From Mya arenaria (lineage: Eukaryota; Mollusca; Bivalvia; Myida; Myidae): a stretch of DNA of 64,000 nucleotides. The notes below the pieces were generated by a model. That model searched no databases, was not told where the DNA came from, and was given only the letters and a program-made list of their open reading frames with translations. Both the position numbers and the translations under genes were made by a program. The stretch is taken from assembly GCF_026914265.1 (NCBI RefSeq), contig NC_069136.1, positions 16,801,228 to 16,865,227 on the forward strand, written 5' to 3'. This document shows positions 16,964-63,002 of this stretch, piece by piece. Each line of letters begins with the position of its first letter. Position 1 is the first letter of the stretch.

Positions 16964-19566
16964 TTAAAAGTAACTGTTAACAATAAAATCCCGTTTCGCT
17001 GTTCCAGTACCAACATCATCCTGCATATTATTATCAATGTTTTGTATGACATCTACATCATCTACCTCTGGCATATTAAACATGACTGCTACATTATGTA
17101 GAATTGCACAGGCTGTAGCTATGCGACAGGCCTTGTCTGGACTTAGCCTGATCTGAAATAAAAATAAATAAATAGTAATCATAGCAAAGTTTTTAATATC
17201 ATCACATATCATAAAGGCGAGCAGTAAATTTAAAAATGAAAGCAGTCACTTTATGCACTTAAACTATAGACTGAATGAAACTTAGTCCGAGTATTCAAAA
17301 AACATATGCAAGAAAGTATCTCACTGTGCAGCACGTGGAAGCGCCGCTTGAGCCTACCAAAGGCCCTTTCTATGCAAACCCGGGTTCTAGTATGGGCTAG
17401 CTGGTACCTCTCCTTGGCAGGAGTGTCAGCGTTTATAAACGGCGTCATGAGGAATGGCCGTAAAGGATACCTGTGGCGGGGAATAAAATCAATATCAATA
17501 ATAAAATTGACAAAAAAAACAACAACGTCCCGATGTTACAATCTTGTAATCATACGGGTGTGTGTAAGATTGTTTATACTCGCCCTCGGGCCTTGCTCAT
17601 TCAGCGATTGCTCCCTTAAGAATATTAGTCATTTCAATTTTTGGAGCATGCTGTGCACAGACAGAATGTAACCCTGGTTTGAGCTACCCTGGTTCTTTAA
17701 CGTGCATCAGTGTATAGCACTGACCCCCATTTAACGTCCCTCCCGCGAGACGATTATTACGTTTAGTGATGCGACAGGGAATAAAAACATGCGACCGCTT
17801 GATTGAAAGTGAAGTGTTTATAATTAACAACTAGACCACGGTTCAGCTACTAATTTCATCTGATGACATCATGCTTTGTATATGCTACTTACCCACTATC
17901 TCCAAGAAACACCCCATCTTCCAGACATTGATTGTCTCGTTGTAGCCTGTTGCACAGCCCTGATGTCCTGAACACGTGTGCGTCATGGCACGAGCCTGGC
18001 CAACTGGCGTTGACACTTGTGAACAATCCTGGGAAAATAATGATTTAGTTATTTACCAATTAGCTTAACAGCACGTTCAGTCTTACAACTTTATGACATG
18101 ATTATAAACAACATTCGCATTTTTTATCATCAATTCAATTCAAACATTTATTGCATGAAGGCCTCCAGCCCATATCATCAGGGACGGTTCCTTAATGTTC
18201 TTTAATGTACAACCACAAATGTAAAGTTTATTTGTGTCGATGTCGGGGGATAGAGGGAGCACTAAGAGCTGTATGTCCCAACTAAAACCCCTCAATCATC
18301 AAATCCTGGAGCCATCCCTGCGTATGGTTAGGTTAGAGTGGTAAACTGTATTAAGTTAAATGAAAAACATTTAGGGGACCATTTGTAAAACTTTCTATGA
18401 TAATTGTCACATTCTGACCAAACCCAATATGCCCATTATTGATCGATAATCGGGGTGAATTTCAGATTTTATGACCGTTTCGGTCTAAGACGAGTTGACA
18501 AAAATTATTTGATAAAGCGTTTACAAGGCGTGAGACCACAGTTATTTTTACTATATGTTTCATATAGACACTAACCTGGCTTGTGACTTTATACACACCC
18601 CAATTGAAAAACAAGGACATGGCATCTCTAGAACAATTCAAGACACAAAATATAATCACAAGAAAACACCATGTTGACCATTGACCCGACTGTCAAAATT
18701 TAGTTCAAATACATAACCCTTCCGCCAGGGAGTCAATCGGCTACAAACAACTAATTTTCAGACTTCCACAAGCTATGAATTTTCAAATATTTACATTGAA
18801 AACTATCAATTTCTGCCATAGAGTGTCAAATTCAGTCAAGTACTCTGCAAAAAGAACATTTTTTGCTTCTTTTTCATTCAATTTTAATAAAATATTGATA
18901 CTTGAACACAAGCACTCCTTTTTTCTGTATTCACATCCGGATCTTGTCAACGGGGGGCAGATAACTGTGGTCTTGAGCCACAAGAAAAGGATCTTTAGAA
19001 TGTTTATGGTGAAATTTCAATCATTTTTTACCTTCATGATCGCAAACTGCCTGCATGTTGATACTATGATAGCCTTTTCGGTTGACATAAGCTGGCTCAT
19101 CAACAGAAGGGGCCTGGATACGGATGAGTGTCCCGTCAACGCACCCCACTACGTGAGGGAAGCCTGCCGATGTGAAAAATCCGCTCTTCACTCTATTCTT
19201 CTCTTCGCCGGAAGGCCATACAATGAATCGTTTCATTATTTTGCAAATAATATCCGTCACGTGGGTTACCACACGAGAAACTGTTGATTTGTGGTAACCC
19301 ATGCTGTCTCCTACAAGTACAACATTGAAAAACGCCCCTGTGGCGAGGAACCGAAGGGTTATAAGAACCATCTGTCGCACACTGAGGGCTCTGTTCCGGT
19401 GAGTGTCTCTTTTTATGTCATCCTTCAAGATATCCTCCAAAAATGCTACGCCATCATTTGTGAAACGATACCTCTCATGCATTTCCCCATCATCAAGATG
19501 CTGAACATGAGGAGTATGTCTATACTGACGCTGTTTCCTTACATTTGGTAAAAATACACCTGCCAT
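16964..19566 (-). CDS. Harbinger 1 DDE transposase, four exons
   Basis: Exons are 19566-19032, 18028-17893, 17470-17320 and 17152-16964, giving 336 residues with no stop. An N-terminal region with a helix-turn-helix (about 60-105: LSVRQMVLIT, then YHKSTVSRVV) precedes the catalytic core: D144 in GCVDGTLI, D194 in SWPGSCHD and E258 in CIERAFGRLKRRF. The family's ACAILHNVAV motif is in the last exon. Length and motif order fit active PIF/Harbinger transposases, which recognise the inverted repeats and move the element by cut and paste. One oddity: the join HSE to IRLSP places the exon 3 donor at GAG|ATAC, not GT, so that intron would be AT-AG, or the donor has mutated. All other borders are canonical. 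A SINE body and another retroelement end sit in its introns. Confidence 0.85.
17556..17773 (-). mobile_element. SINE body, 5'-truncated, minus strand
   Basis: The minus strand reads CGCATCACTAAA, GGGAGGGACGTTAAAT, GTTAAAGAACCAGGGTAGCT, CCAGGGTTACATTCTGTCTG and GAGCAAGGCCCGAG in the same order as the fuller SINE at 50813-51085. Nearly all of the tRNA-like head is missing. It sits in intron 2 of the Harbinger 1 transposase gene. Confidence 0.75.
18121..18320 (-). mobile_element. 3' end of an unidentified retroelement, minus strand
   Basis: Read on the minus strand the block ends GGCCTTCATGCAATAAATG followed by TTGAATTGAATTG, a short tandem tail typical of LINE or SINE 3' ends. No coding body is attached. 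It lies in intron 1 of the Harbinger 1 transposase gene. Confidence 0.4.
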
Positions 19567-19733
19567 GGTAAAGCTGCCGTTAACTTAAATCGAGGTTCTT
19601 AACTCAATTAACTTAAACGGTCAGTTCCACCGTTAACTCCATCGTTAAAACTGAACATTTCTTTGAGCAACAGAAAATTAACGCCATGTTGAAATTTAAC
19701 GGACCGTTAGCTGTTTAACGGTCCGTTAAGCCA
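19567..19733. promoter_or_regulatory. subterminal CCGTTAA/TTAACGG cluster, right end of Harbinger 1
   Basis: Between the transposase ATG (19566) and the right inverted repeat the same words occur (CCGTTAACTT, ACCGTTAACTCC, TTAACGGACCGTTAG, TTAACGGTCCGTTAA), mirroring the left cluster. The region would also serve as the promoter of the transposase gene. Confidence 0.45.
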
Positions 19734-20995: not shown

Positions 20996-22205
20996 TATAT
21001 AATATACCATACAGAGACTTTCTACCATTCCCAGACTGCCTACCATATCCGGACTGTCTACCATACCTAGACTGTCTACTATACCCAGACTGTCTACAAT
21101 ACCAAGAGACTGTCTATCATACCCAGACTTTCTACAATTCCCAGACTGCCTACCATATCCAAACTGTCTATCATACCTAGACGGTCTACTATACCTAGAC
21201 TGTCTACTATACCCAGACTGTCTACAATACTAAGAGACTGTCTATCAAACCCAGACTTTCAACATTTCCCAGACTGTCTACCATACCCAGACCGTCTCAT
21301 AACCCGACCGTCTACCATACCTCGACCGTCTGCCATAACCAGGCTGTCTACTATACAGAAACTCTCCACCGTTCCTAGAGTGCCTACCATACTCAGACTG
21401 ATTACAATACCCGGACTACCTACCAAACCCACACTTTCTACTATACAGAGGCTTTCTACTGTTCCTGTACTGCTTACCATACCAAGACTGCCTACCATAC
21501 ACAGACTGTCTACCGTACAAAGACTGTCTACCATACCCTGACCGTCTATCATACCCAGACTATCTATCATACCAGACTGACTACCATACCCAGACTGTCT
21601 ACCATACCCAGACTGTCTACCATATCCCGACTGTCTACCATACCCAGGATGTCTACCATACACAGGATGTCTACCATACACAGACTGTCTACTATACCCC
21701 GAATGTCTACCATACCCCGAATGTCTACCATACCCTGACTCTCCACCTGGCTGTCTATTATATCCCGACTGTCTACCATACCCTCTACTATACCCCGACT
21801 GTCTACCATACCCCGACTGTCTATCATACCCTGACTCTCGACCATACCCAGGCTGTGTACTTTACCACAATTGTCTACCATACCCCGACAGAGTCTCTAC
21901 CGTTCCCAGATTGCCTACTATACCAAGACTGTCTACCATACCCAGACTCTCTACCATACCCAGACTGTCTACTTAAAAGAGACTTGTTAACCGTACCTAG
22001 ACTTTCTACTTTACCCAGACTGTCTACCAAACCTTGACTGTCTACCATACCCAGACTGTCTACAATACCCAGACTGTCTACTATACCTAGACCATCAACC
22101 ATACCCAAACTATCTACCATACCAGACTGTCTACACTATCTTGACTGTCTACCGAGTACTGGCTATCTACCATACCATGACTGTCTACCATTCACAGACG
22201 GTCTA
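20996..22205. repeat. 18-bp satellite array, about 1.2 kb
   Basis: Diverged tandem copies of CCAGACTGTCTACCATAC, with variants such as CTATAC, CGACCG and TTGCCT and occasional phase changes. As 18 is divisible by three, long open frames arise on both strands (repeated YGRQSG or MVDSLG); they are by-products. The array begins about 50 bases beyond exon 2 of TNF copy B, inside its intron. Confidence 0.9.
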
Positions 22206-22780
22206 CGTTAACAATTTATTTACAAGCAATTAACAAGTATGTTTATTCTTTCTTTACCTGCTTTCCATTTGTGTTTGAATTTTCTCCTTTTTCAACTCCA
22301 GCGTATGCAGATGAAATTTCCTGGCAGGGTTAAAGACATTATCTTTGCACGTTTATTGTGGGAAGTTAAATGTAACCAGGAAGTGACTTTGAGAATGCTG
22401 AATTAATATGGACGGAATAATTCATGAGTTTATACTTACAAATATATAAACTATAGTTATCAAAACTATCACCGAAAATTGTGAACATAAAACGAAACTC
22501 ATTAAAATAATCATAATTGATGTCATATTAAAACTAATTTAGACAGTAGCATTTATTTCAAATCAAAAGCTTATAATATTTCCCTTTTCAAACAATGCAT
22601 GTAACAAATCGGTTGTTTTACCACATTCTACACTATTGTTATTATTGCAGACATTTCTGAGTCACTGTCGATTTGCATACTGTCCGACAGAGTCCACATA
22701 ATGCAGAGTACTTCAATAAGAACGACAAGCAATAACAATAGACTGACTATATTCAACCTCTTAAGCAGTCCGTCTGCCAT

Positions 22781-23059: not shown

Positions 23060-23062
23060 TAG

Positions 23063-23079
23063 GGCCCCGTTTTACTAAC
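23063..23079 (+). repeat. left terminal inverted repeat, Harbinger 2
   Basis: 17 bases exactly inverse to 42298-42314, followed by palindromic CGTAAG words to about 23170. Confidence 0.9.
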
Positions 23080-23534
23080 ATTTCGTAAGTTTTACGTAAG
23101 TTTCCACGTACATTTTCAACTTACGTAAATAATACGAAATGCGTACGTGCGTTTTACTAAATTTTCGTAAGTGTAAAACTCATATAAATAAATACAAATA
23201 AATAACAATAAAACAGACTTTGCTTGACTTTGCTAGGTTTTCATAGGCTTTGCTAGGTTTCGCTGGATTTTTTTCAATCTTGAAGTAATGTAATTTTACA
23301 AATTTAACACAAAATTTGCAATAAATTATACATTTTTCCAACTAAATATATAAAACTCATAAAAATAAATACAAATTAATAAAAATACAACTGACTTTGC
23401 TTGGCTTTGCTAGGCTTTGCTTGACTTTGCTAGGCTTTGCTAGGCTTTGCAGTGTTTAGTAGGACCCTAAATATTTGCGTAGCAATCGGAACTCCTCGGC
23501 TAGTATCAAGATATGGCCTCGGATATAATACGGG

Positions 23535-24645
23535 TCGTAAGAAAATAGTCCATCATGGCCGACCAAGAAGATGTTCAAACAACCAAGAGATATGTTAGTC
23601 CAAAGACAGAATGAGGAGCGAACTTTTACCACTTATTTGTGTGTAAGTGTTATTTTTTATACTTATTGTATTTTAATAAAATATAAAAATAGTTTTAAAA
23701 GAGCCCTAATGAGAAACTAATTGGAAATGTCATTAATTCTTAGTGGGTGGGGTAAAGTCTTTTTTCATTTGACAGATTCTAATATAGTAAATAACAATTT
23801 TGAAGCTCCAGTGATCAGTGGCAAAAAATAAGAAAACAAATACTCTATTTGATTTTTTTTAATAACAAATAAGTCTGAATCTGACTTTACTTAGATCGAT
23901 AATTGGTTCGACTTTCTTTCTCAGTGTATTTATCTCATACATTTCATATCATTAACTTTAATTTTAATTATTATAATTAAAATTTACATTCTTTTAACCA
24001 AGGATGTATGGTTTAAATGTCTGTGAGTGTTGGTATCGAACAACTTAATGTAATGGCACAATTGAATGCCTCGGCCTGCTCACTAATATAGTTCTCTAAA
24101 TAAATTAGATCTTCATTCTATTGGTTTAACAAAATGAGTTTGAATGCATAAACCAGCACACATTTCTTTCAAGACTAAATTCTATGATATCCACCAGTGG
24201 TGGTGATGCAGAAACATTGAAAAATGCTGACATTTTTACTGTGCCAATGAAATGCAGACATTTAAATTTTAATCTTATTGTCATTTTCAGAGAAGAGTAT
24301 GGTACCAGGGGTACAGCTGACTCTGATTCCCGGCTTCTTCTAATGAAAAAAGGCAGATGAGGTAATGGTTGTGCTATTTTCGAAATTCGGACAATAATTT
24401 AACAGTCAAGTATCCTATTGGTTTAAGCCCAAAAGTACCTGCATGTTTGTACAATTAACCAACAAGGATTGACAGTATTAAAATATCAACATTGTTACAA
24501 TTTATCTACAGTTTGTAGATAAATTAAAACATGATAACAATTTCATTTCATATTTTTTAATTTACCAGTAGTCCAGAGCTAAAAGCTGCTCTCTCACAGA
24601 TTGACAGTTCTTCTTGGTCATTCTTCAAAAGCCCAAAGGAGTAAT
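23535..24645 (+). other. possible small extra transcription unit near the left end of Harbinger 2
   Basis: ATG at 23535 opens MADQEDVQTTKRYVSPKTE then stop. Exon-like pieces follow downstream, including one after an AG at about 24569 that reads SPELKAALSQIDSSSWSFF and then KSPKE before a stop at about 24641. No family is recognised and the joins are not established. It could be a third gene of the element, a remnant, or chance. Confidence 0.2.
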
Positions 24646-25479
24646 TAAATTAAATTTACACATATAATTCATTATATGGCTTAAAGCAATAGCAAAAAAA
24701 TATTTTCCAAACAATTGAAATCTGTTCTATTATGTGTGACCTTATATGACTAGTTGGAGGAATTTTTACCAAATTTTCAAACTTGTATATGAAAGACTGT
24801 GATCTGATATTATGTCAGCAGTCTAATATCACTGGTTTCCATACATTTGCACAATAATTGCCAATTGGCTCGTTTAAAGGTAAAAATAAAAAAGGTGTCA
24901 GAACAGTAAAACTGTGAGGATGCAGCTTTAAATTGGTGTTGCACTTAATGTTTTGTGAATACTTTTCTGTTGTTGTACCGGCTTTTAAAATAATTGATCT
25001 GAAAATATAATTCCTATTATTGTTGTATTTTCTGTTTTCTATTTCAGGCACTGGAATCCGAATGTAATCAAAAATGCCATTGTATGAGGATTGACCTGCA
25101 ATGCATGGAAATCATCTAACACAACTGCAACGCCTACCTTGAAAAATGAGTGCAAGATGGAAAGGAAACAAAGCATTCAGTGGAACATCTTGTCATCTCG
25201 AATATTTGATGACTTACATACTGATGTGAAGTTGAAGATAAAAGACATCTGTTGGTCCGTGATTATTAAATAAATCCGAACATATATTTTAAAAGGGTAA
25301 TATGGTAAAGGATATATCTACGCTTAAAGTGGTTTTCCGAGGGAAGATAACTACAAAAACAGAAACAGATGGCATCGGCAGACCAAATAAACTATTTTGT
25401 TCAGTTCAATTTTTAAGTCTTCAGAAATTCCGTTAATAGGGCACATCCTTGCAAATGCCATATTGTAAACTGGGCTCTT

Positions 25480-25670
25480 GTGAAAAGGTGAAAGTGGTCT
25501 AGAGGATACGCCTCAAATTCAAGGTTGTGAGTTCAAGACCTCCAAGATACTTTCTCTTGACCTCAGGAAAAGGATGTCCATACTTGTTTCTACTTAGGCA
25601 ACAGACTTAAGAGTGATCTTGTAAGCTTCCATAGCAATCTGATAAGGCATAAAATAAGATACTAGCTGAC
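25480..25670 (+). mobile_element. tRNA-derived SINE in Harbinger 2
   Basis: AGTGGTCTAGAGG (A-box-like) and GAGTTCAAGACC (B-box-like) are spaced as in a tRNA promoter. A non-tRNA body and an AAAATAAGATA tail follow. The family differs from the SINE at 50813. Confidence 0.55.
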
Positions 25671-26815
25671 TTGCAAACAGTTTTTCCATTTGTGTTGATT
25701 TATTTTTCAGTCTGTTGGAATGTTTATTAGAAGTGATGCGCATTGCTTACTGCAACCACAATTTATTTTCTTTATTAAGTTAAATTTAACGAACACGTAA
25801 CATGACTTGTGATTTTACAGATGCATGTTTATTTTGGTTGATTGTATGAGTTTATTTTCTCAAATGATGTAATAAAAGTTATTCTGAATGACTGTCCTTT
25901 TTTGTTTGAAGAAAATGTGTTGAGGTTTTGGCATAGCATAGTGTCATCATCATCATCATCATCATTGTTGTGTACAAATAAAACATTCAAAACAATGTAA
26001 TTAAAACCAAACTGTCAAGCCAAGTACTCAAAGAGGCACAAGGATATTGCTAAAGAGACCGGTAATACATTTAGACAAATAAAATGCAAAGAAAGATCTA
26101 TAATTCTGACACATGGTAATGCTTTAAATAGTCCTCTCATTGTGTGTTTATTGTTAAAGTGGAGACATACAGTATTTTTTATAACGAAGACTTAAATTTG
26201 TATGGCAACTTAAAGCCATATATGTGGATTAAACGCCAGAAATATTGTGAAGTCTCCAAACTCAATGCACTTAAAAGGGCTTGGCACAGAAATGAAAGTA
26301 AAAATGGGAGCAAAACCTAATTTATCATTAATTTAACATTGGATTGCATACAGATGGCTCTGTTATTACTTGACTAATATCAAAAATAAAATTAAGAGAC
26401 ATGTTGATCCAAACTGTAATTATTCTTGTTTGCATTTTATGGAGTTGGACATAAAAGAGTCATTTGGTGAAGAGTGATCTAAAGGCTAATTATTCAAAAT
26501 AGATTAAGTATTATTGAAAAAAGTCTGGTATACATTGCTGAAAAGCTTAGTAACCTGGCTAAATATTTGTTTAAGGCTTTTATTTAGAAAAAAATAAATC
26601 AGTTGAGTATCTTATCAGTTACTCTTTTGGTGTTGTTGTTTTTAATAAAAAATGACAATTTACTCAAAGATATTGAGACTAATAATTATAGATTAAGACA
26701 AATATAATGTGTAAGGAAACTTCTAATGAATGGGTTTATCCACAGCCTAGGAGGTAAAGTGAAGCATGATCTGCCTTGAACAAATACAATTTTAAGACAA
26801 GTTCTGTCAACTTAG

Positions 26816-27134
26816 TGCACCAGTCAATTGTAACCCCCCCCCCCCACCCCAGGTCCGGGGGAATACTGGGGTTAACCCGGGGAAATGGGCCGTGTTTTTA
26901 CCTATCAGGTGGCCCTGCAGTGCTGGGTGAATGCGGTGGTTTTATCTTCGCTTAAAATATAGAGGGGAATGGACCTTACCTATAGTCCCTGGGTGTGGGG
27001 GCTTTTGGCAGGGATTTTGCCATTGGATCGTCCGCGCAGGGTGGGGATTTTAGCCGGGGTTGGCTGTATTGAAAGTCAAAGTCCCCACTATTCCCCAGAC
27101 CGGGGGGGGGGCGTGGTTACAATTGTCTGGTGCA
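26816..27134. mobile_element. MITE, 319 bp, with C/G runs in the inverted ends
   Basis: It begins TGCACCAGTCAATTGTAACC followed by a C run, and ends with the near complement GGTTACAATTGTCTGGTGCA. AGGTCCGGGG and CCCCAGACCGG extend the pairing inwards. There is no coding content. The superfamily is unclear because no target duplication is visible. Confidence 0.75.
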
Positions 27135-27938
27135 TATCCTCATGAACGTTGTACTGGTACTCTAACAATTGAGCTTACTGCGTGGATAGTCACCGCCCCA
27201 CCCCAACCCCACAGAACTGTTTACACAAAAAAAATCTGCAGCCCAAACCCAACAATGCTGAAGTAAAGGCATGCATAGATTTCAGCTGCTAAAGCTGACT
27301 GGGTGCCAAGCTCACACCCATCCTACCACAACCCACAAAACTCTGCACAAGGCAATCAATGATTTTACAGAATAGTAATGCTGTTTTAATGGCAAGGCAT
27401 GGTGTGAAAAATAACACGGCAAAGTATGACTTAAAACTTACATTTCATAGGGTATTCCTATAACTGTTGAGAAAATGTTGACATTTAGTCCATGCATGCA
27501 TTTAATCCGATGTAATGATTCATGCATACCGTATGATCATTTCAATGACTGTCAAGTACATTTTCTGTGTGCTCACGATTTTTCTAGAGGAAATAGAGTG
27601 CTTCAACTATAAGGAATCATCTAAATATTCATAAAACGAACATTCTTTGAGGTTACAATAAATATTTTCTCTTAAGCAAGCACATTTAATTTAACACAAT
27701 CCATTTCCTTGTTGTTACAATTGGCCTTCTTTACGCGGATTGAAAACGGTGTTAATCGCCGGCAGCCGCATCGCACTTTCGTATATCCTTACTACTATTT
27801 ACGAGGTCTATCTCGAAGCTTGCCGGAGATGGCCGAGTTGTTACGATTGATTTGCGTAGGGGTAAAAAAATGCGTAACTCTCCGATAGGAGGTAGCACGC
27901 GCGCACCTGTCAAAAAAAGTAAACAATCGTCTGCAACA

Positions 27939-29919
27939 ATGGAGCCGACCGCAAAGCAGCGACGTAAGGTGAATTGGTCCAGGGCGGAACAAGATATTTT
28001 TAAAGGAAAGTTACTTTGAGCTAACCTCAACATTAGACAATAAGTTCTGCCCTGGACTAACTCATGTTGATAAAGATCGGGCCTGGAAGGAAATAGTGGA
28101 GCGGTATGGTATTTTTCAGTCATAAACAACAAAAATCGGTTTGTATTTGAAAGATAAATCTCTTATGTTTAGTTTTACCAATAAATATATATTGCCACAA
28201 CAATTTTGACTGCCAGACTGTGGGAGGACCCCCCCCCCCCCACCCCGAAATATGAGTAAAATAATTAAATATTATATAAAAATACATATTGAAAACTCAC
28301 TTGAATTTCAGAGTGAATGCGCAAGGCGTTTGTGAGAGGACACTTGATGAGTGCAAAAAAAAATCAGTGACATAAAAACTGATGTGAAGAGACGAGAAAG
28401 GAGGAGGCGTCAGCTTTCAAATGTGACGGGGTGGGCCAGCTCCGAAATTGGAGGATTGGGAGGATAAGGTAAAATAATCATTTAAACTGTTTTCTTTTGA
28501 AGTAAACACAATAAATGGGGTGCTTATGAGTTGGTCCACTATAATGCCATCTCATGTATTGGACACAATCAAATGTAATATAAATGGATTATAGGTTATG
28601 TTTCTGGGTGGCTCTTACTTATATTTTTCCCAAATTTGATAAACGCCTATTTTGGCCTGATTTGTATTTTTCCCAAAGTCAACCTTTTTCACAATTCGAA
28701 AGGCACAGGCGATAAAAATAATTCCAAAACAAATCACATAATTTTCAATCTATTGTTATATAAATATTTGAAACAAAAATGAATTTTACTGACATGAAAA
28801 TGTTTTTTTGTGTACAGGAAACATAACTTTAATTTTGGCCTTAGTTACATTGATTTTGTGTAACTGTTACAGATGATTAACCTGATTGATGACTCAGCGA
28901 TTGGAGGCTTTGCTGGTGTTGATACCTTCTTGATGAAGAGTAAGTGGCCTTTTTTAAATTTGTATCACCACTTACTGTTATTTTATTTACCACATACTTT
29001 CTGATCCAAAAAGGTATGTGACCTCAGCATGTAAAGGGTTAACTGTTAAAGTGTTATTCTTGTTAGCATTATTGTCATTAATGCAAGCTCCAGTAATATT
29101 ATGTTTTATCACTACTACATTTATTAAAGTTGAATCAACCTACACCAATGAAACATCATCCATTAAACCTGCAGCCACTGAGCCGTTTGAAGCACTGGCA
29201 GCCTATGAGAAACCATTGCCGTACATCATATCAGTACCATCAATGCCCATAGGTGCCACTCTTCAAGAAAGGTAATTTTAATAAGGTTATCATTGGATGC
29301 ACTTCTATTCTTTGGATATTGCATTAAATATTCAATTGATGCATTCAATGAAGCAACATCAACATTATTAAATTATAATCATCATTCAATTGTAATCATT
29401 TGTTAGTATAATATTTATTTATTCCATATTTCAATTACAACTAGTCAAGAACTTACATTTACATTAAAAAACTAAATTAACAAAAATGTAACAAATTACA
29501 TAATTGTTTATTCACATTTAGTGCACCAATGGCAGTGACAGAAGACAGCGGTCAAATAGACAAAGGCAGAGGTATTGTAGTATTTCTTAATTAAATATTC
29601 TCAATCAGAAATAAAACAGTATGATATGCAGTATCATTTTTGACTAATTATTTGAGTTATATTAATAATCTATGAATAATTCTAATGCTATTTACATCTT
29701 CTTTAAAATAACTGTAAAACGAATAATAACATAATAATTTTGATCAAGATATTCTTTTCATTTATTGCAGCTCCTTGAAAAATGAAATCACATTACTTTT
29801 CAGGTGCAGATAGCATTGAAAATCTTCTAGTTCAACAGAATCAGCTCCTCAGTGAAATACTCCAACAACAAAAAATTACTAATGAGTTAATGATAAATTT
29901 CTACACTTTGAAGGCATAA
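27939..29919 (+). CDS. Harbinger 2 Myb/SANT-like accessory protein, six exons
   Basis: Exons are 27939-28108, 28314-28468, 28873-28939, 29130-29271, 29522-29571 and 29804-29919, all GT/AG. The phases fit if the T run near 28000 is one shorter, the A run near 28355 one longer and the G run near 28427 one shorter; the protein is then about 232 residues. It starts MEPTAKQRRKVNWSRAEQDI, runs through FCPGLTHVDKDRAWKEIVERY and VNAQGVCERTLDECKKK to VKRRERRRRQLSNVT and PKLEDWEDK, the Myb/SANT-like layout of Harbinger accessory proteins. It ends in a Gln-rich coiled coil (LLVQQNQLLSEILQQQK). Its expected job is binding the element ends and bringing the transposase into the nucleus. Confidence 0.7.
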
Positions 29920-32805
29920 ATATATGACATGAATACTTTATTTTACTCCCACCATATAGCGTTGTGAGCTATATTGGAATCACCTTGTCCCGTCTGTCCG
30001 TCCGTCCTGTGCCATTGGGACAAGTATACTTTTCTCCATTACTCATGTTTTTGTGTCTTGTACGAAGCAAAAATTTAAAGTCTTTGAGATATTGCTTTTA
30101 AACTTGTTATTGATATATATCTTGTTAAGGCCAATTGCAGTGCACAAGAACCATACCTCTGGGTGCACTTTTGTTTGCGTTAATTGCTTTGTTAATGTAC
30201 ATAATTATTTTTTGCCCAAAGCATTTACTTGACATGTTTAAAGTATTTTAGGTATTGAACATTTATAACTTAACTTATACCTTTTCACAGTCACAGGGCA
30301 TTCAATAAGTGTACATCACTCCCTGTTGTACTGCAATATTATTACAATAAGGCGGTATAGTGGGGTTATTAATCACATCCAGTGATATAATTTATTTACT
30401 CAATTGATAAAGAACTCAATAATTTGCTTATGATGGTGTTAGGCTAATTGTTAACATGACCTGATACAGGCAGTAATTTCTAGAAATGATAGTCTTGTTA
30501 CACTGATATTATTTTAAGTAGTCTGTGTAATAGTTAATAGTTGACATGAACTTAATTATTAATGATTAAGAACGGGCAGATTGAGCAAAGGCAAAGAGCC
30601 CTAACTTACTTAAAATACAACTCATTTACTGACTCATTGTCAACACAAAAAAAACACAGGGAGTGTGTATCAGATGAGTGGCAGTAGGCAGACATTAAAA
30701 CTACCTGAAATTCTTAAATATTATGCCTATTGCTTAATAATTGCCTGTTTGCAAGTTCAGGTTTTATTATAAATAATTTTCGAAGTGTTCACCAAATCAT
30801 CACGATAATATCCATAGCTGTAGTGCAGCAAATGTTAGAAGTAGAAGAAATTTAAATTCCAACATTATTTTCAGTCACATTTGTCTCTGACAACTTAATT
30901 ATTTGTGTATAATATGTTGTATGAATTTGTTCTCATCTGCTGTGACATTTACACTAATACTTATTCATAAAATGTCTGACTTAACAATTGTTTTTTCCAA
31001 ATGATATCAATCATGCCTACATCAGAATTTACTGTGAATGGTGTATCTATTCATAAAATTGACTTTGGATATATACATATTAACATTTATAATTGACACT
31101 TATCAGAGTTATCTGTTCTTATGTTGTATAATGTTTAATGTACTAACTTATGTAAATCAAATTTGAGGGTGAGCAAAAAAGTTAATGTTAGTCACATATA
31201 ACATATACTTGTTACAGTTAACATTACAAAAAAATGTTATTTCATGTCTGTTATATGTTCATGTAAAGTTTTATGTGTCAATGTAGTAGATGTATAATTG
31301 TAAACTGGTTTATCCAGAAATATGTGTACAGATCCATGTATTTATTACAGCTCTCCATGATTTTTACATCAGCTAATGAAAAGTTATAAGAAAACTATTA
31401 CTATGTGACACTTCACAAATATGTTGTTAGTTACATTATAAATTACTTTCATTAAGTTTAAAGTCCAGTTTGTAGTTTAACTGTTTTAATAACAAAAAAG
31501 TGCTATTCAGTAACAGCTTCATCAATTCATACATTTTCATTTAAAGTGATGTTTATTAATTTGGGAACATTGGCTAAAAGCAAATTGAATCTAGTTAAGC
31601 ATTCAATATACTTCCATCACTCCTGTACATTTGTTATCATCCAAATATGGCATTTACCTGAACCATCATTTATTATATCATCAGCGGAAATGCATTAGCT
31701 AGTACATTTTTGAGTTATTTGAAATGATTGAATTTGCAAAGAACATGTCATATTTAAAAGAATGGTCAGGTAAACTGTATTGGCATTTCAACAAAATATA
31801 AAACTTCCTTTTTACTGTGTTATAAGATTTCTTTATATATCAGATAAAGGATGATTAAAATCACCATGGAACAGCATTTATTTTGTTACTTCAAGTTCTT
31901 CCACTGATATAATTAGGAGTATATACCCCCTCATAAACAGCATAATAAATAGAATAGCTACTGTTTCATCATATTATGAGTCATGGCTATACTGTATGTT
32001 ATAATAAGTAATTACTTTCTTCATGTCAAAATGAAATAAAATATGACAATTTAGATGGTAATCATTACATTTCAAATATGTTTGTGCAACAAATTAACAA
32101 TGGTTATGATAATAGTAATGCATTGTCTCCTTTTTTCATGAATACATTCAGATTCATTATATCATGAAAAAGTTTGTTCTCACGGTTTACACTATACTGA
32201 GATTTTAGAGTAATCCATACAATTGAAAGCTTCATTCAAATTCAAGGTTGTTTTACTAATTTTGGCCATTTTGGAGTTTGCGGCAACTTCATTTAAAAAG
32301 AAGATTGTCCCATATACTGAGTCATAATAGGTTTTCATGGTACAGGCACAGTTTGTCATCAGTTGTGTCAATATTGTATTTTAGTTCATACAGGTATTAA
32401 TCTTTCAGACCCAATTTCTCGAAACATCTAAAGCATAACAAGCTTTGGTATTTATTTTCATTAATCAAGATTACTAATAAAAACTCTATAAAGTTAAAGA
32501 TTGTTTGTCAGTAATATAAGCAAAATAATTTCTATTGAAAGTACATGTATAAAAAGTCTTCAAAATGTTTATACTGTACAAGTTATACCGAAACCAAAAT
32601 ATTGGATAAAAGATAAATTCTGTTTTAAGAGACTTAAGATGTTTTGAGAAAAAATGGGCAATTGTGACAGTTTATGAAAATTGATACAGAAAGTTCTTAA
32701 CTTAATTATACATAAAAATGTGAATCTATCACAAATTAATAATATTTCCTTCGCTAGTCCAAATAACAAGATATGCAACCAATTAAAACAATGCGAGAGT
32801 TCATT
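29920..32805. other. spacer between the convergent Harbinger 2 genes
   Basis: A/T-rich, with no gene seen. At 29938-30070 is the head of a mollusc-type repeat (CCACCATATAGCG, then CCGTCTGTCCGTCCGTCC) related in style to the element at 33536, with no recognisable far end. The remainder shows short open frames only. Confidence 0.45.
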
Positions 32806-35800
32806 TCAAAATCTTGCAATAATAGCTCTTCTGTCCCTCTGCGCATTTGGGTCAAGTGCTCCAATGTAAGGTGGTGCATTGTCAGGGGCAACATGGACTT
32901 GTCCATCAAACACGACAGCATCATCTATACACATGTTGTGCAGTTTAGCACAAACAACAAAGACTTTGGCTGCCTTCTCAGGTGTGATTTGGAGGAATCC
33001 TCCAGTCTTATGAAGACATCTGCATGAAATGAAGTGAGTGCAAACATAATATAATACCAATTAACATCATTTTTCTATGATATACCTATAGGGTCAAATT
33101 ATTGTACTAGGAGTAAACAAAATAGGGTTCCGCCTATATTTAGAGGTGCATCTATAAGTTAGAGAGCTCGGCTACATTATGTTTTAAAACATAGAAGCAC
33201 AAAGACAAATATGCACTTCTTAATATAGAGGTGCACCTCTAAGTTGTACATCACATCCAGTGGAATGTGAATTTTTTTTACAAAAACGGTATGCCTATAG
33301 ATATCATAAGCTACTACTATTGCTTATTTTAAAGTGACATGTCTAACAATTGCATAACATATAAACATCAAATCTCGTTTAATTTAAGTTTCTTTTGATA
33401 ATATTGATGAATAAATAACAAAAATAGCAGCTCAGGGATAATAATTTGAATTTAAGGTTGCAAATGAAAACAAATTAGTTTGTTATATTTTAATGAAAGA
33501 ACTAATTTTTGGTCTCCTATTGTTGTTATATTTTATTATGCCCCCCTTCGAAGAAGAGGGGTATATTGCTTTGCACAGGCATGTCGGTATGTCGGTCGGT
33601 CGGTCCGTCGGTAGACCAAAGCTTGTCCGAGTGATAACTCAACAATTCCTGGACGTATGGTCATCAAACTTGACATGAAGGTTGGGCCTGACCAGTAGAT
33701 GACCCCTATTGATTTTAGGGCTCATCAGGTCAAAGGTTAAGGTCACAGTGACCTTTAATGGTAAAATAATTTTAAAGGTTGTCCGAGTGATAACTCAACA
33801 ATGCCTAGACCTATGGTCATCAAACTTGATATGGAAGTTGGGCCTGACCATTAGATGACCCCTATTGTTTTTGGGGGTCATCGGGCCAAAGGTCAAGGTC
33901 ACAGTGACTTTGAATGGTAAAAGAATGTCCGAGTGATAACTCGACAATGCCTGCACCCTTGGCCTTCATTCTTGACTTGGAGGTTGGGCCTGACCAGTAG
34001 CTGACCCCTATTGTTTTTGGGGCACATCGGGTCAAAGATCAAGGTCATAGTGACATTGAATGGTTAAAGGTTGTCCGAGTGATAACTCAACAATGCCTGC
34101 ACCCATGGCCCTCATAATTGACTTGGAGGTTGGGTCTGACCAGTAGACGAACCCTATTGTTTTTTGGGGTCATCGGGCCAAAGGTCAAGGTCAAAGTGAC
34201 CTTGAATTGTAAAAGGTTGTCCATGTGATAACTCGACAATGCCTACACCCATGGCCCTCATTCTTGACTTGGAGGTTGGACCTGACCAGTAGATGACCCC
34301 TATTGTTTTGGGGGGTCATCGGGCCAAAGGTACAGTGACCTTGAATGGTAAAAGGTTGTCCGTGTCATTACTCGACAATGCCTGCACCTATGGCCCTCAA
34401 ACTTGACTTGGAGGTTGGGCCTGACCAGTAGATGACCCATATTGTATTTGGGGGTCATTGGGCCAAAGGTCAAGGTCACAGTGACCTTTAATGGTAAAAG
34501 GTTGTCTGAGTGATAACTCTACAATGCCTGCACCCACGGCCATCTTGAATTGAATTGGAGGTTGGGCCTGACCAGTAGATGGCCCCTATTGATTTTAGGG
34601 GTCATTGGGCCAAAGGTCAAGGTAACAGTGACTTTGAACGATAAAAGGTTGCCCAAGTGATAACTCAACAATGCCTGCGCCCATGGCCCTTAAACTTGAC
34701 TTGGAGGTTGGGCCTGACCAGTAGATGACCCCTATTGATTTAAGGGGTCAGAGGTCAAGGTCACAGTGACCTTGAAAGCAAACTCGACAATTCCTGGACC
34801 TATGGTCATCAAACTTGACATGAAGGTCGGGCCTGACCAGTAGATGACCCCTCTTGACTTTGGGGGTCATCAGGTCATGGTCAAGGTCACAGTAACCTTT
34901 ATCGCAAAAAAGTTAACAAATCTTCTCCCAGTGATATCTCAACAATGCCTGAATCTATGATCATCAAACTTGACATATAAGTTGGGCCTGACCAGGAGAT
35001 GACCCTAATTGATTTTAGGAGTCATTGGGTTAAAGGTCAGGTTCACAATGACCTTGAATGCGAAAATGTTTCAAGTGATAATTTGACAATGCCTGCACCC
35101 ATGGCCCTCAAACTTGACTTGGAGTTGTGTCTGACCTGTAGATGACCCCTTATGATTTAAGGGGTCATTGGATCAAAGGTCAAGGTTACAGTGACCTTGA
35201 ACGAAAAATGCTTGTCTGTGTGATAACTTGTCAATGCCTGCACCCATGGCCCTCAAACTTAACATTTGGATTTTTGGTGACCAGCTGATGACTACTATGG
35301 ATTTTGAGGTCATAGAGTCAAAGGTCATGGTCATAACACACTCTATCCTCTTTGAATGGTCATAATCTTAAAACTGCCTCAACGGCATACAATGTCAGCG
35401 ACAAATCAGCTGTCATTTTGGCCCGTGCATATTTCATTCAATTGTCCATATAATCCTGACAACATGGCGCTCAGGGGGGTCATAATGTTTGACAAACATC
35501 TCTTGTTCATTATTTTTTTACATCTTCCATATCAAAAGTGTTATCAATTGGGCTTTCTGAATAGAAACAATTCATAATTAGTTGCCTTACACTTCTTTAA
35601 GTTAATTTGCTTACTTATGAACACCAGTAGATGGTAACAAGAAAGTAATACTATATTTGAAAAAAAAAATATTACCGAAATCTCGACTTCAACAAACCAA
35701 ACGCTCTTTCCACTACCATTCTGGTACGGCTTTTTGCCAAGTTGAATGCATTTTCCTGTTGGGTTGTAGGCCGGATCTATCAGCAATTGCATGAAATTAG

Positions 35801-38800
35801 TGTTTAAAGCTATTGCATTTATATTTATAACTTGCATTATATCTGGGATCGATCCGAAGACCTTACCATGTTTTTACAAGTTACCTGAGCAAATATGTCA
35901 CCTAATATGCTACAAACACAGTTTACATGATGGTGTTAATTAAATACAGACAATTACATATACCCTTCCTGTAATTGTATTGAACAATATTACATTAAAC
36001 TATTGTACACAATTATAATGTTTATTCTTGCCTTTGGTGTGAGCATGTAAGGTTTCAGGGCATAACCCGCGTAATCAATCAGCCAACCAACATTATTTTC
36101 CTCGACCCATGCCTTCAGGCCACAGTTCTCAAATATGGTGTTGTCGTGTGTAGACCCCGGCCACTGAGCGACCACATCAGTGAATCTGCAATATGGACAT
36201 ATGCAGACAGATACATGATTTGGATTCCCTATAGATGCATACAGATATTAATGTGAGTTACATTTTTAATGCACTGAATGATTCAATACAATTTTTATTG
36301 CAGTGTAATTTGTTCATTAGGTACATAAAGATAAATCATTTATTTCATCATACATGTATGTATTTAAAAATATTTCTTTGATTATCAACGTCACTTAAAC
36401 TACCGGGTAGTTCTAAATTTAATAATACCTCATATCGGGTGTCACTACTGCCTGCACGTTTATTGCATGGTATCCTTTTCTACACATATATATATCTTCC
36501 CTTACTCTTGGCGCTATGATGGGGATTAATGTTCCATCTACAGCTCCGATGCAATTTGACATTCTTGCTACCTGATAAAACTTTTGTTTAATAGAAGCCA
36601 GGTCAGCCTGGGTGGTAGGGAACTTGATGTTGTTGACACGCTGGTTAATTGCGTCTACAACCTGACATTAAAAATTAAGTAAATTTATTGAATTGTTTCT
36701 TCAAATTTACATGAAGCTTAAATATGAAGGATATACATTACTCTGTAAGTACTATAACTATCGATATCCCTCTAATTAAAGAAGTGTTTTATGGTTGAGC
36801 CTCTGTTTGAACACATTTTTATTTTTTCGATGAAATACAAATGATTAACATTCATGAGAAAAACATAATTATAAGGAAAATGTTCAGGATTTTTAAAGAC
36901 CTCATATCATATGGTAAAACTGAAGTTACAAATCACACATTAAATTAATTTATATACAGCACATGTCTGTTAAAAAAGCTTTGAAAGATCTTAAAATCAC
37001 AATTTTATGCAACACCAAATAAATCAATTTAAATCAATAAATGATTAAAATGAAGTTTTACTTACTTGCCAAACAGATACACATACAGTGCTTCTGGAGA
37101 CGCCATGTACAAGTCCACCCTCACTATAGAATTCCCCTTTCCCCAAGAACTGCAGTGTTATGAGAAGCTACCGGTACAACAGTTGAACCAAACAATTTGA
37201 TATAATATTATATAAGTTATATACTAAGGTAAATTTTGGAATGAAAGGAGAATATGATGTTGATTACAGAATATTCAAGGCACTAATGGTTGAGTAGCAA
37301 CAAAGTTGTCGGAAGAATAGCGCAATTATAAGTAAAACCCATACCTCAGTGACATCATTTGGATCAACTTCCATTGAAATTATGTTTACCTGTGTGCCAT
37401 TGCAGCAAGAGCCGAGACTACAATATTCCCAATACACAGCACATTTTAGTTTGTAGATTATAAGTTGCAAATAAATGTATGTCATGCAATATCACTTATT
37501 GGGGATTAAATGCCACCCAAAAGTTATAAAGCACAAACACGCTTACAAACAACTTTTCTTTTAATCTCAAACACTCGATTGCTTCCATCCGGATAGAGCG
37601 AATTTCGGATACAAATAGCGATGCCAAGTCGATTGTAATAGTCTCCCTTTATGAATCTCATGAATATTAATTTTTCACGGAAGGCGACCCAATATTGGTA
37701 CCGATTTTATACACTCTTTAAAACACATATATCAACATTTGCGGAGAACCATGTGGCTATTTATAGTTAATTAGATGATGAAATATTTTGGAAATCAGTC
37801 AAAGTTCACTGAAAACGTGGTTTTTCTAAAAGAAAAACGAAAGTGAAAATTTGATTAAACGTTTTTTCCATGTTTTAAGGCAAGTACAACGGATTATTTG
37901 GTTTGTTTTTAAGCATGGGAGGGGTCTCTCATAGTTTTTTATAACTTTTGATACGAAAACAATTGGACTATGAACGTTCTCAGACCATTTATAGACTTTG
38001 CCAAAATGTAAACAAAATTCCAAAATGGCTGCCGCGAAATGAAACTACAGTTTTCACCCAGTCAGATGTTTGATTAATGCATGAAACAGTTGCTGACAGC
38101 TTCAAACTCCAAGTACACCTTGTGTAAATAGGTGTAAACATTAAGAATGAATACATTTTATGTCCATTCTTTAAATAATTGTAAAATAAATTTTTCACAA
38201 AGTTTGTGTTCGTCCCCAGTTTCGTACCGTTTCGTTCTCAAATATGTTTACAGTGTGTAGTCAAGACGTGTTGATATAAAATAAAGCCCGAGAAAAATGC
38301 CAGATTTAGGTTACATCAGTAGTTTTCAAACTGAAACGTTGTTTTTGTGTAATAAGAAAAGATAAGATAAATTTTATTCCAATCATGGGTCATGTTATAT
38401 GACATATAAATCACATATTACATAATGTAGAAAATAAATTGAAACAGTAAGGCAACATATTTAGTGAATGCAAATAAGGCTTCATTTTGAATTTTTTTAA
38501 ACACAAATAACTTAAGCTTATTTGGAAAATTAATAAGCATGTTTCCCATTTCTTTTTGTATGCCTTAAAGTAATGTAAATGTACTATTTAAATACAGAGT
38601 TGATGTTTATATGTGATTATAACTTACAAATGGGAATCATGTTTAAAATCAATCACAAATTAGTATTTATAAACCATTTAACAGGAGACAACAGCAAAAA
38701 GAAGGAATTCACTCATAAATTGACAATCATTATTAAATATAATATAATATTAATATAATAATTGGTTTCATCAATATCACATTATTAAATAGCAGTGTAA

Positions 38801-41800
38801 TACTGTACCGGTAATTGCAATTAATGTACAACTCGTTTCAGTTTGTAACGAAACTGTTTATTTATTTAAGTTTGTTTATTTGCTGTGTTTTATTCAGTTA
38901 TTATGTCTGCATAGTAAAAAAGCCTTTTGAGCAGTTCTACATGCCTTACAATGAAAATAAAAACTTGGGTCAGGATTTCGTGACTTTTCAGTTAGTGCAT
39001 TTTAATGGCGGTGAAGGGTGGGTGCATACAAATGGCTATATCTTCACTTTGAAATGAGATATTTCAATAATTCTTGCATTTTTATACTCACAAAATATGT
39101 ATATTAACAGAAATGTAAGGTTTTTGCATGTCAAATTATTAAAAAAAAGTCATGTTGCAATGCTAATACAAATTTAAATTTCACATTACGTTGATACAAA
39201 CAATCCACAGTCTTTCAAAACATAATAGAAACACGTTTAAACCATGATTTAAAATCTACGATTAAGTCCTCCAATGCCTTTGTTTTAAAATCAGTAGGAA
39301 ACGCAAGTTGTGTGAAAGTTTGTAAAACAAAAGTTTCAAGCGTTTACACATCCAAGGTGAAGGTCAGATCTGAGAAAGGGAGGCTATCGTGGGCGATACT
39401 ATTTCCCGGTCCCGGTCTCATCCGGTCCCGGTCTCCTCCGGTCTCTGTTTTCAAAATTTTATTGTAGCTATCGGGCGTGATCGAGAAGGTGTGAATGACA
39501 GCGGGGGTAATAGGATTACAAAAGATTACAGTTAATTTAAACATTAGATAGTTAATGATAATTATTTCACCATTTATTTCATATTTTATATCAATAAAAC
39601 AAAAAATAAATTAAGGCAAAGATAAAAACATAATATATGCACATGTTCTAAACTTAATGTAATGAATAACAAACACATTGTGTGTTTGTTTCCTTATTAA
39701 ATTCAGTTATAAGTAAACTTTTGATAATAGTAATATGAATAGAAATGCAAGAATACATGTAAATCAAATGTGTAAGTTAACTCAGTACTTCATAAATTCT
39801 AACATTTTTGTTTTGTTTAACTATTGATTTTGTTACAAGAGATGCAGTGCCACGTCCAGTTCCTGCATTTTCTATTTTCGCAAATCACTATCGACGAATT
39901 CTAGCATTTCACATAAACAGAACGGTTAGTTTTTTTAAAGTCTAAGGGATCGCGCCTTTTCATTTTCTTTATGAAACAGTTTTTTCATGTTTTCTAGACT
40001 GACTAGATGTTCCCTTATTTCACTGACAACGAGTTTGGCATAAGAATTTACACAGTCATTCTTAAAACAAAATTCTACAGCATTCGTAATTGCAAAGACA
40101 GGCATGTCCATTTGACGGTTGTTGTAAACAGGCGCGTAGGAAGGAAATTGACATTGGGGCCGCGGAAGGAGTGTGCTGGGGAGGGGTGTCTCCTCCCGTC
40201 GAGATTTTATTTCAGTTTTAAGCATTGAAGGACTCGATTTCCTGTGATTTCAGGTTTTATTTTCGTGTCTTTATCTGAACCCTTTTTCGGTTGAAATAAC
40301 ATTGTAAGCAACAGCGATATGTTAATTATTGTGCAATCATAAATTATTATAAACACCAGTATTTATTTCTCTTTAAATATTCATATTTGCACAGTCTCAC
40401 AATGTATGTTAAATAACTAATTGGCACAGTTCACCTCTTCATCGTGTTGAATGCCCCATGTTCAGTTTTTAGTGCCAAAAGATCTCTATGGAAATCTTAA
40501 ACTTCTAGGCAGATTTGGAACGTCCATTTTTAAGTCAAACTTTAATGTGATGAGTTTGAAATAATACATATTGCTGGCTATTTAATGGCAATTCTATTTT
40601 AACGCTCATGACGACTTTTAATACAGATTATTGTATTTTGTAAGTTATATTTCATTTGTAAAATAGCCTTCCAAATATTTCAGTAGTTTATTTATCATTA
40701 CTATACTTACTATTATTATTGTCAAGGAACTCTTCATAACAGGTTTATGACAATACACAATAATGTCATACCATGAAAGGTGTAAATGCGATATACAACG
40801 CGTGTCAGAGATTAGCGCATGTCCCTCGATCGTTAAGGACATGATAAATGGATATGCCAGTTTTATTACAACCGCACGGCTTCTGTTCGGTTCATACCTT
40901 AAAAATATGGTTGTTTATTATAGTAAATGATTGTTATGCAAAGGGTCTTGTAAAGTTAAGAAATAATACGATAATTACATATAACCAAATTAAAAAATAA
41001 TCAGCGTCAGATTTCTTAAACAGTTAGAGATTTATTGCAAACTTAAAGTTGACAAATAAAATATATTCTGCTAAAGTTGTGTAATAATGACGAAGGTATT
41101 CGAATTTATTCAATGTAATAAGCGAATAGCACAAAAAATATATACGAAAAATGGAGACGTAATGTTTTTCTTACTTAAGAATGGTGCAACTTCAAATAAA
41201 CACTCTTCATCTAGTTGTAGATCTTGTGTACTTTTTCACCATTCATTGATTTACTTGTTTACATGCTATTAACACTGTATAATGTTTTACGCAATAAACA
41301 TATCTTATCGTAACGACATGCATGGGTCGGATATGCAACCATGGAAACGTTTTCAATTGTAATCATTAATTTTACACAATGCTTCAAAGAGAACCGTGCA
41401 CACTCATAGCTGGACTGCTTAAACAATATTATGTGTGTTTGTTTTTAAACAGAAGAGAAAAACAATAAACCAACTTGACAAACATAATTTAAAACGTGCA
41501 ATTCTAAGTTTCTTCATACTCTAGCCGTCCTTAATCCTTTATTAAAAAAAAATGAACATTTTTATTGCCATCGCATCTTTCTCTACACTTTTAACAAATT
41601 GCATAAATAGTTTAGGCCTATAACAAATTGCATAACTTAAGACATAATGTTTATATATGTTATTCTATTTTGTTACATATAAAAGCAAATAAGATTGTAA
41701 AATTAGTTTAACAAACATCGGCAACACAATCCGTCGCCTCGGGCCATAAGTTATGGACCGGGAATTATGAGACCGGATGAGACCGGATTTTACGAGGAGA

Positions 41801-42130
41801 GACCGGGAAATAGTATCGCCCGGCTATCGTGAAAGAACGTAGGCTATTGAAACGAGCTATAGAAACGAGCTATAGAAACGATAAGTTTTCCATCGACTAT
41901 TACTCGTCAAATATAAACATTTTTTTTACCTTTGTCATCGCTTGAATGGCATGACTTCGCATTGTTCTTGGTTTTATGTCGTCCTCAGTGAGGTCGTGCA
42001 AATCAATTATTTGCTGCCTGGATAGTCTGTACTTAACTTTTACTTCATTATCATTCAAATTATTCAACATATCAACTCTATCGCGAAAATTACGCGGCAG
42101 GCGACGTCGGGGATTTCTTCCGTCGGCCAT
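32806..42130 (-). CDS. Harbinger 2 DDE transposase, six exons, 334 residues
   Basis: Exons are 42130-41930, 37167-37066, 36661-36429, 36185-36032, 35776-35676 and 33019-32806, with no stop in frame. The N-terminus is MADGRNPRRRLPRNFRDR. A helix-turn-helix-like segment (LLITLQFLGKGEF, then VHGVSRSTVC) is followed by D143 in GAVDGTLIPI, D193 in QWPGSTHD and E253 in MVVERAFGLLKSRF, then VCAKLHNMCID. These are the DDE residues and LHN motif of PIF/Harbinger. Borders are GT/AG except the exon 4 donor AAG|GCAAGA, which makes a GC-AG intron; phases fit at every join. Intron 1 is 4.8 kb and contains a MULE-like element; intron 5 (about 2.7 kb) contains the 2-kb repeat element. The whole frame and clean ends suggest a recent or still capable element. 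Confidence 0.88.
33536..35510 (+). mobile_element. non-coding mollusc-type repeat element with about 12 tandem 145-bp units
   Basis: It opens ATGCCCCCCTTCGAAGAAGA with GTCGGTCGGTCGG just inside. About twelve units follow with the pattern GTCCGAGTGATAACTC, AATGCCTG, CATGGCCCTCA, TTGGGCCTGACCAGTAGATG, GGGTCAT, CAAGGTCACAGTGACCTT. It closes near GGGGGGTCATAATGTTTGAC. The ends are loosely inverse (ATGCCCCCC and GGGGGGTCAT). No protein is coded. Four units keep a perfect AGGTCAnnnTGACCT palindrome (33740-33754, 34188-34202, 34473-34487, 34758-34772). I recognise the style as widespread in bivalve genomes but cannot name a superfamily. Confidence 0.75.
37530..39390. other. intron 1 of Harbinger 2 transposase, left part; nothing certain
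   Basis: A 45-codon minus-strand open frame ending near 37535 (MRFIKGDYYNRLG) has no motif. AAAGATAAGATAAATTTTAT at 38356 looks like an inverted retroelement tail. Otherwise A/T-rich with no signal. Confidence 0.35.
39391..41821. mobile_element. MULE-like DNA transposon, 2.4 kb, non-autonomous
   Basis: The left end GGGCGATACTATTTCCCGGT (39391-39410) is exactly inverse to 41802-41821, and imperfect CCGGTCTC words extend the pairing. GGCTATCGT flanks both sides (39382-39390 and 41822-41830), a 9-bp target duplication as made by Mutator-like elements. No transposase was found inside. A 96-codon minus-strand open frame (39935-40225; ITNAVEFCFKNDCVNS, HKENEKARSLRL) has no recognised family and could be captured host sequence. 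It is nested in intron 1 of the Harbinger 2 transposase gene. Confidence 0.8.
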
Positions 42131-42297
42131 ATTTACGCTATTTGGAACAAACTTACGGATGCCTTTTTTAACGTAGTTTTACGCAAAAACTTACGTGCAT
42201 ACGTTAGTACGAACTGTTTAGTAAAACGCAGTTACGCTGAAAAATTGTGCGTACGCAAAAACTTACGGAAATATTGGAGTTACGCTTACGTAAGTCC

Positions 42298-42314
42298 GTT
42301 AGTAAAACGGGGCC
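42298..42314 (-). repeat. right terminal inverted repeat, Harbinger 2
   Basis: 17 bases exactly inverse to 23063-23079; TAG follows directly. Confidence 0.9.
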
Positions 42315-42317
42315 TAG

Positions 42318-61389: not shown

Positions 61390-61496
61390 GACGTGATATG
61401 TAGCGGTTGAGTGGTCAAGTGGTCAAGACGTGTAAACAATAGTGGACAGATAAAAATATAAATATTTAATTTAAACAGGATTGTTTTACATAGAAA

Positions 61497-62987: not shown

Positions 62988-63002
62988 GACAGCGATGGGG
63001 TC

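Follow-up and report, generated by a model that had tools for sequence, protein, structure and literature searches.

Analysis of a 64,000-nucleotide stretch of the genome of the soft-shell clam Mya arenaria (contig 15, 16,801,228-16,865,227; hereafter the window) revealed a 19,252-bp PIF/Harbinger-type DNA transposon, whose great length was very probably acquired after insertion. We are confident that an element of about 8.6 kb with two genes, belonging to the CWG-target (NuwaI) type of Harbinger, landed at this site, swelled in place to 19.25 kb and decayed, so that it is now most likely dead. An original prediction, made from the sequence of the window, had described a swollen Harbinger with intact ends and a whole transposase frame, which had either moved recently at nearly full size or been protected at its site. 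The siblings and empty sites of one genome instead allow a seemingly giant DNA transposon to be recognized as a normal one that grew after landing. The element and its borders are as follows.

23063-42314: PIF/Harbinger-type (NuwaI-like) DNA transposon, 19,252 bp, delimited by exact ends, colinear siblings and paralogous empty sites
23063-23079, plus strand: left terminal inverted repeat, 17 bp exact, inverse of the right end, from the 17-mer genome search
42298-42314, minus strand: right terminal inverted repeat, 17 bp exact, inverse of the left end, from the same search
23060-23062: left copy of the TAG target-site duplication, from flank comparison (single TAG in all four empty sites read)
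42315-42317: right copy of the TAG target-site duplication, on the same evidence

As predicted, the two inverted ends match exactly over 17 bp, becoming imperfect further in, and TAG stands on each side. A genome search for the same ends, proposed at the time as a check, was run over 1,216,080,610 bases in 18 contigs, and siblings, empty sites and nested inserts were compared. The 1.2-Gb genome contains 67 exact occurrences of the 17-mer (31 on one strand, 36 on the other), while its reversed control did not occur at all; its repetition is therefore not due to chance. One of the contigs searched, contig 18, carries a COX1 frame (bases 181-1518) with six in-frame TGA codons and is thus the mitochondrial genome, which leaves 17 contigs besides. 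Five siblings on other contigs were colinear with the window copy and differed from its core by 1.75-2.19% substitutions. The outer 115 bp of the window copy are kept, at 95.6-100% identity to these five siblings:

Contig 7: 8,587 bp, uninterrupted
Contig 9: 5,459 bp, shortened by internal deletion
Contig 6: 10,033 bp, with one insert of its own
Contig 1 (19.3 Mb): about 19.9 kb, with an altered left tip; its own inserts are an ISL2EU transposon of 6.5 kb and a 4.7-kb piece within exon 1
Contig 16: about 13.5 kb, with an altered left tip and two inserts of its own

The outer flanks of the window copy are themselves part of an older dispersed repeat, which provided a view of the site before insertion. 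When the flanks were joined with one TAG and searched, 306 candidates were obtained, of which 40 were scored and listed; 38 of these were paralogous sites crossing the junction, and the remaining two were the window's own flanks. All four paralogous empty sites that were fetched read ACTAGGAG, with a single TAG. Given that such sites cross the junction with one TAG, the whole interval 23063-42314 is the inserted unit. That similar ends are frequent (67 in the genome) and that another Harbinger-like fragment lies nearby, at 19021-19584, might suggest that the two ends come from separate short elements, or that the interval is a composite of several. However, the siblings are colinear from the left end to the right end and the empty sites lack the entire interval, which refutes this explanation and leaves it a negligible probability. 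Both outcomes named beforehand as fatal to a single element, namely two separate short elements and an empty site lacking only part of the interval, were looked for and neither was found. The element is thus correctly delimited, of Harbinger type and one unit. The nearby fragment, on the minus strand 3.5 kb to the left of the element, derives from a different Harbinger-like transposase and matches DDE_Tnp_4 (E = 6.1e-8) in the region of the first aspartate only.

Comparison with the siblings revealed four private inserts in the window copy:

23178-27849: insert 1, 4,672 bp, contains high-copy repeats, some of them satellite-type units; no clear duplication
33538-35502: insert 2, about 1,965 bp, 146-bp tandem repeats, in intron 5 of the transposase gene, ragged edges
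37617-39165: insert 3, 1,549 bp, in intron 1, with an 8-bp duplication ATACAAAT and hAT-like ends (by eye)
39392-41821: insert 4, 2,430 bp, in intron 1, with 21-bp inverted ends and a 9-bp duplication GGCTATCGT

Together these inserts account for 10,616 bp, and without them the window copy measures 8,636 bp as compared with 8,587 bp for the uninterrupted sibling. Each insert was absent from the five siblings wherever its site was kept, the site of insert 2 being deleted in contigs 6 and 9. Counted per copy, with loci of one copy merged, the site was found uninterrupted in 17 copies at site 1, three at site 2, 18 at site 3 and 19 at site 4 (numbered by insert), although two of the 19 barely cross the site. 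No other copy read carries any of the four inserts at the corresponding position. The absence of the inserts from the siblings and the length of 8.6 kb after their subtraction point to a landing at about this size and to swelling in place, which is most simply placed after the move. Inserts 3 and 4 arrived by insertion, as their exact target duplications show, and the unduplicated sites were seen in all three siblings read for each; we infer that inserts 1 and 2 arrived in the same way.

Pieces of three inserts have close copies elsewhere in the genome: the right 416 bp of insert 3 (at up to 99-100% identity), the left 400 bp of insert 4 (up to 98%) and a piece of about 400 bp from insert 1 (up to 97%). 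The satellite-like repeat in insert 1 swamped a search with the left 300 bp, and the left side was instead traced from position 27850. The contig 16 sibling carries, at 23185058-23186531, a relative of the insert 2 repeat that is 88% alike over 1.4 kb but runs the other way and occupies another position within the element. This repeat family has therefore entered Harbinger copies more than once. The original prediction was right that mobile or repeated DNA lies inside the element, but the swelling is not confined to introns, since insert 1 separates the left end from an accessory Myb/SANT gene.

These results bear directly on the proposal of a recent move at close to the present 19 kb, with nested elements aboard. 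Its exact ends, exact TAG duplication and open frame would fit such a move, as would the existence of a 19.9-kb sibling. However, the inserts of that sibling differ from those of the window copy, no copy read has any insert in common with it, and the sites are uninterrupted in the 17, 3, 18 and 19 copies given above. The partial cases likewise show no insert of the window copy. At site 1, one copy (L032) continues across the site and diverges some 20 bp further on, and in another (L027; contig 4, near 55827205) a different sequence interrupts, about 115 bp in from the left end, almost at the place of insert 1. At site 4, two loci (L010 and L047) and a right end on contig 5 depart before the site, and no insert 4 was seen in them. 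We therefore regard a recent move at full size as highly improbable. By the preferred account, the approximately 8.6-kb two-gene element entered a TAG target within the older dispersed repeat, and four more stretches of mobile or repeated DNA joined it later, bringing it to 19.25 kb. Decay proceeded meanwhile: as its sequence shows, the copy has lost the aspartate of the GDxGY motif of the transposase and acquired a frameshift in the Myb/SANT gene. The ends would in principle remain recognizable to proteins of intact relatives.

The lengths of other copies indicate that the window copy is not exceptional. Of roughly 27 end pairs formed by eye, we counted the 13 for which both ends were read, leaving out the contig 1 and contig 16 siblings with their altered left tips. 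These pairs span 4,499-49,935 bp; the longest was read at its ends and over 20 kb of its interior. The window copy is only the fourth longest, and a length of 19 kb is therefore not singular. The 3-bp flanks were equal in 10 of the 13 pairs, nine of them being CAG or CTG and one TAG (the window copy); two of the nine represent one insertion with duplicated flanks. The other three pairs had unequal flanks, CTG/CAG (L034/L035), ATG/CAT (L061/L041) and CAG/CTG (L040/L060), and these reverse complements perhaps reflect recombination between copies at CWG sites. On contig 3, the same Harbinger insertion is found within duplicated flanks at 60653790-60680639 and 61011362-61024797 (98.9% identity over 1.5 kb on the left, 97.0% over the first 970 bp on the right), a pair that is either a segmental duplication or unmerged haplotypes. 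Despite their common insertion, the two copies measure 26,850 and 13,436 bp. Their length therefore changed after insertion, and such change in place is common in this Harbinger family.

We next turned to the coding capacity of the element. Its transposase gene lies on the minus strand and comprises six exons:

41930-42130, minus strand: exon 1, start codon at 42130
37066-37167, minus strand: exon 2
36429-36661, minus strand: exon 3, holds D143
36032-36185, minus strand: exon 4, holds D193; GDAGY of the siblings reads DYAGY here (codons 216-217, 36071-36076); GC donor
35676-35776, minus strand: exon 5, holds E253
32806-33019, minus strand: exon 6 and stop codon

The exons join in frame to encode 334 amino acids with no stop before the end, and the predicted bounds of exons 1 and 2 (42130-41930 and 37167-37066) were supported. 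The introns are GT-AG except intron 4, which is GC-AG, and the GC donor is common to all three siblings compared. Residues 142-292 of the 334 match DDE_Tnp_4 (E = 2.3e-33). D143, D193 and E253 are present, as the original prediction had stated when it called the transposase whole, D193 being the aspartate of a GSTHD motif. However, residue 217 is tyrosine in the window copy, whereas it is the aspartate of GDAGY (216-220) in all three siblings that keep this exon. We take D217 to be the second catalytic residue, as it follows the motif GWLIGD and stands 36 positions before E253. This is the usual spacing of the second catalytic aspartate before the glutamate in DDE enzymes. D217 rather than D193 is thus probably the second catalytic aspartate, and its spacing before E253 leads us to read D217Y as the apparent loss of a catalytic residue. 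A transposase can have an open frame and still not be whole.

The accessory gene, which had gone unmentioned in the original prediction, is damaged as well:

27870-28122, plus strand: accessory Myb/SANT gene, first part; frame broken by an added base within 27997-28001, a run of T (PF13873, E = 2e-6 when read as in the siblings)

The frameshift is private to the window copy, the frame being kept at this T run in all five siblings, and Myb_DNA-bind_5 (PF13873) matches the sibling reading. All five sibling frames end shortly downstream, slightly earlier in contig 7 than in the other four, and we place this end beyond a splice donor. Excision of the rice element Ping fell about 150-fold when one DDE residue was mutated, and none could be detected when the Myb-like protein was disrupted (PMC2836001). 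We infer that the loss of D217 and the frameshift would together abolish the activity of the window copy, which, judged from its sequence, is most likely now dead and inert.

Private coding changes were counted under a strict rule, according to which all other copies agree, with BLAST pieces below 90% identity and gapped codons dropped; a repeat count was identical. Replacement and silent changes numbered 9:3 in the window copy, 0:2 in the contig 7 sibling and 13:11 in four siblings pooled. Under a looser rule, by which all but one of the other copies agree, the counts were 9:3 for the window copy, 1:2 for contig 7, 5:3 for contig 1, 5:3 for contig 16, 4:3 for contig 6 and 15:11 for the siblings pooled. 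Significance was tested with the strict counts only. Whereas the siblings depart from the 3.5:1 expected without constraint (p = 0.011), the window copy does not (p = 0.74), and its private changes look neutral. Given that its coding sequence looks unconstrained, the site protection that the original prediction had offered as its second explanation is not needed. A related possibility is that the host has kept the transposase as a domesticated gene and thereby protected the site. Such a role might account for a frame that is open in an old, interrupted copy, but it fits poorly with private changes that look unconstrained (9:3), one of which removes the GDxGY aspartate, with inserts that enlarge intron 1 to 4.8 kb, and with the many similar copies that have inverted ends. 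The published domesticated PIF genes lack inverted ends, according to the part of that report used here (PMC9710019). We thus give domestication scarcely any credence.

It is also conceivable that the copy, dead on its own, is mobile in trans, the transposase and Myb/SANT protein of intact relatives excising the 19-kb unit together with its passengers. The copy retains its two 17-bp ends and its outer 115 bp, and in at least one sibling neither stops nor frameshifts interrupt the transposase frame. However, the inserts are in no other copy read, and there is thus no sign that the swollen form ever moved. Moreover, great length usually lowers transposition. Mobility in trans consequently appears unlikely, although it is the least improbable of the alternatives. 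A broader suggestion arises from the insertion load of the family, which is a quantity that specialists may want to follow. Six copies about 2% from the window copy, counting the latter, carry nine inserts totaling about 30 kb in at most about 52 kb of core; as the window copy was chosen for its length, the load is also given without it, as five inserts and about 19 kb in five copies. Copies of this family might gain insertions unusually fast, and swollen copies with intact ends could then move in trans as multi-transposon cargo, but this is a speculative idea to which we assign slightly less weight than to the mobility of the window copy itself.

Several points weigh against our conclusion that the element grew in place and died. 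Insert 1 has no clear duplication and the edges of insert 2 are ragged, so that their mode of arrival is deduced rather than seen. For insert 2 the check covered only three other copies, and those on contigs 4, 5 and 12 that match the left side at 90-95% lay outside the insert-site check. With exact ends and a stop-free frame, decay may be regarded as slight, and the counts of 9:3 and 13:11 do not differ significantly between the window copy and the siblings (Fisher p = 0.29). A PDB search with the 334-amino acid transposase gave no match at E <= 1, and the role of D217 is thus argued from motif and spacing. In addition, a MAFFT alignment of three sequences including an ISL2EU transposase paired the first aspartate, the GSTHD aspartate and the glutamate but placed a gap at the GDxGY aspartate. 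By eye, the ISL2EU relative reads VDKGF opposite the GDxGY motif.

Among known systems, the family most resembles the NuwaI group of the PHIS superfamily, as characterized in the portions of Han et al. (2015; PMC4482050) drawn on here, in which one molluscan species is listed. Shared features include CWG targets (CAG or CTG in nine of the 13 pairs), short inverted ends, a DDE transposase with a Myb/SANT second gene, and an animal host. By contrast, the ends here begin with GGC, where those of NuwaI usually begin with GGG (which is therefore no strict criterion), the core of about 8.6 kb is about twice the NuwaI average of about 4,462 bp, and the window copy sits at TAG rather than CWG. Given the GGC ends, the doubled core length and a comparison of described features rather than of NuwaI sequences or phylogeny, membership in the NuwaI group is a lead with partial support.

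Swelling of Harbinger copies by nested insertions is a process already published: the consulted sections of a 2007 study of Medicago truncatula PIF/Harbinger elements (PMC2213677) describe complete copies of 2,180-25,288 bp, several long ones with nested transposons. Those elements differ from the present family in their plant host, their TTA/TAA targets and the gypsy-like retrotransposons among their inserts. Teleost Harbinger elements, as far as the main text of their description goes (PMC9179366), likewise have transposase and Myb-like genes, inverted ends and 3-bp duplications, but they come from other hosts, and the word 'nested' is absent from that main text. The element in the window is thus real but ordinary, a decayed copy of a common kind of transposon that grew after insertion, and its analysis provides the anatomy of a CWG-target Harbinger family in the soft-shell clam.

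The ISL2EU transposon inside the 19.9-kb sibling is a more striking find than the Harbinger itself. Spanning 6.5 kb (contig 1, 19349635-19356114; L063/L064), it has inverted ends of about 34 bp that are 88% alike, a YqaJ exonuclease frame, and a 357-amino acid transposase frame with HTH_Tnp_4 and DDE_Tnp_4 domains (L064, 198-1268). A 400-bp piece of the transposase was 100% identical in all 40 scored places, including itself, from 78 candidates. Its score of 146.0 bits was matched by 58 of 150 scored DDE_Tnp_4 matches, from 1815 candidates, and 55 of the 58 lie in a stop-free frame of 357 amino acids. This pattern looks like a very recent, perhaps ongoing, burst.

Other features of the window lie outside the Harbinger element:

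1310-1903, minus strand: frame with a TNF-family rather than a C1q domain (PF00229, E = 1.4e-13)
21005-22206: 18-bp tandem repeat, about 67 copies, open in several reading frames on each strand
57829-59265: tandem array with a repeat of about 176 bp, eight copies
61494-63767, plus strand: pair resembling a long interspersed nuclear element, a 497-amino acid frame and, after it, one for an endonuclease (Exo_endo_phos, E = 2.5e-11)

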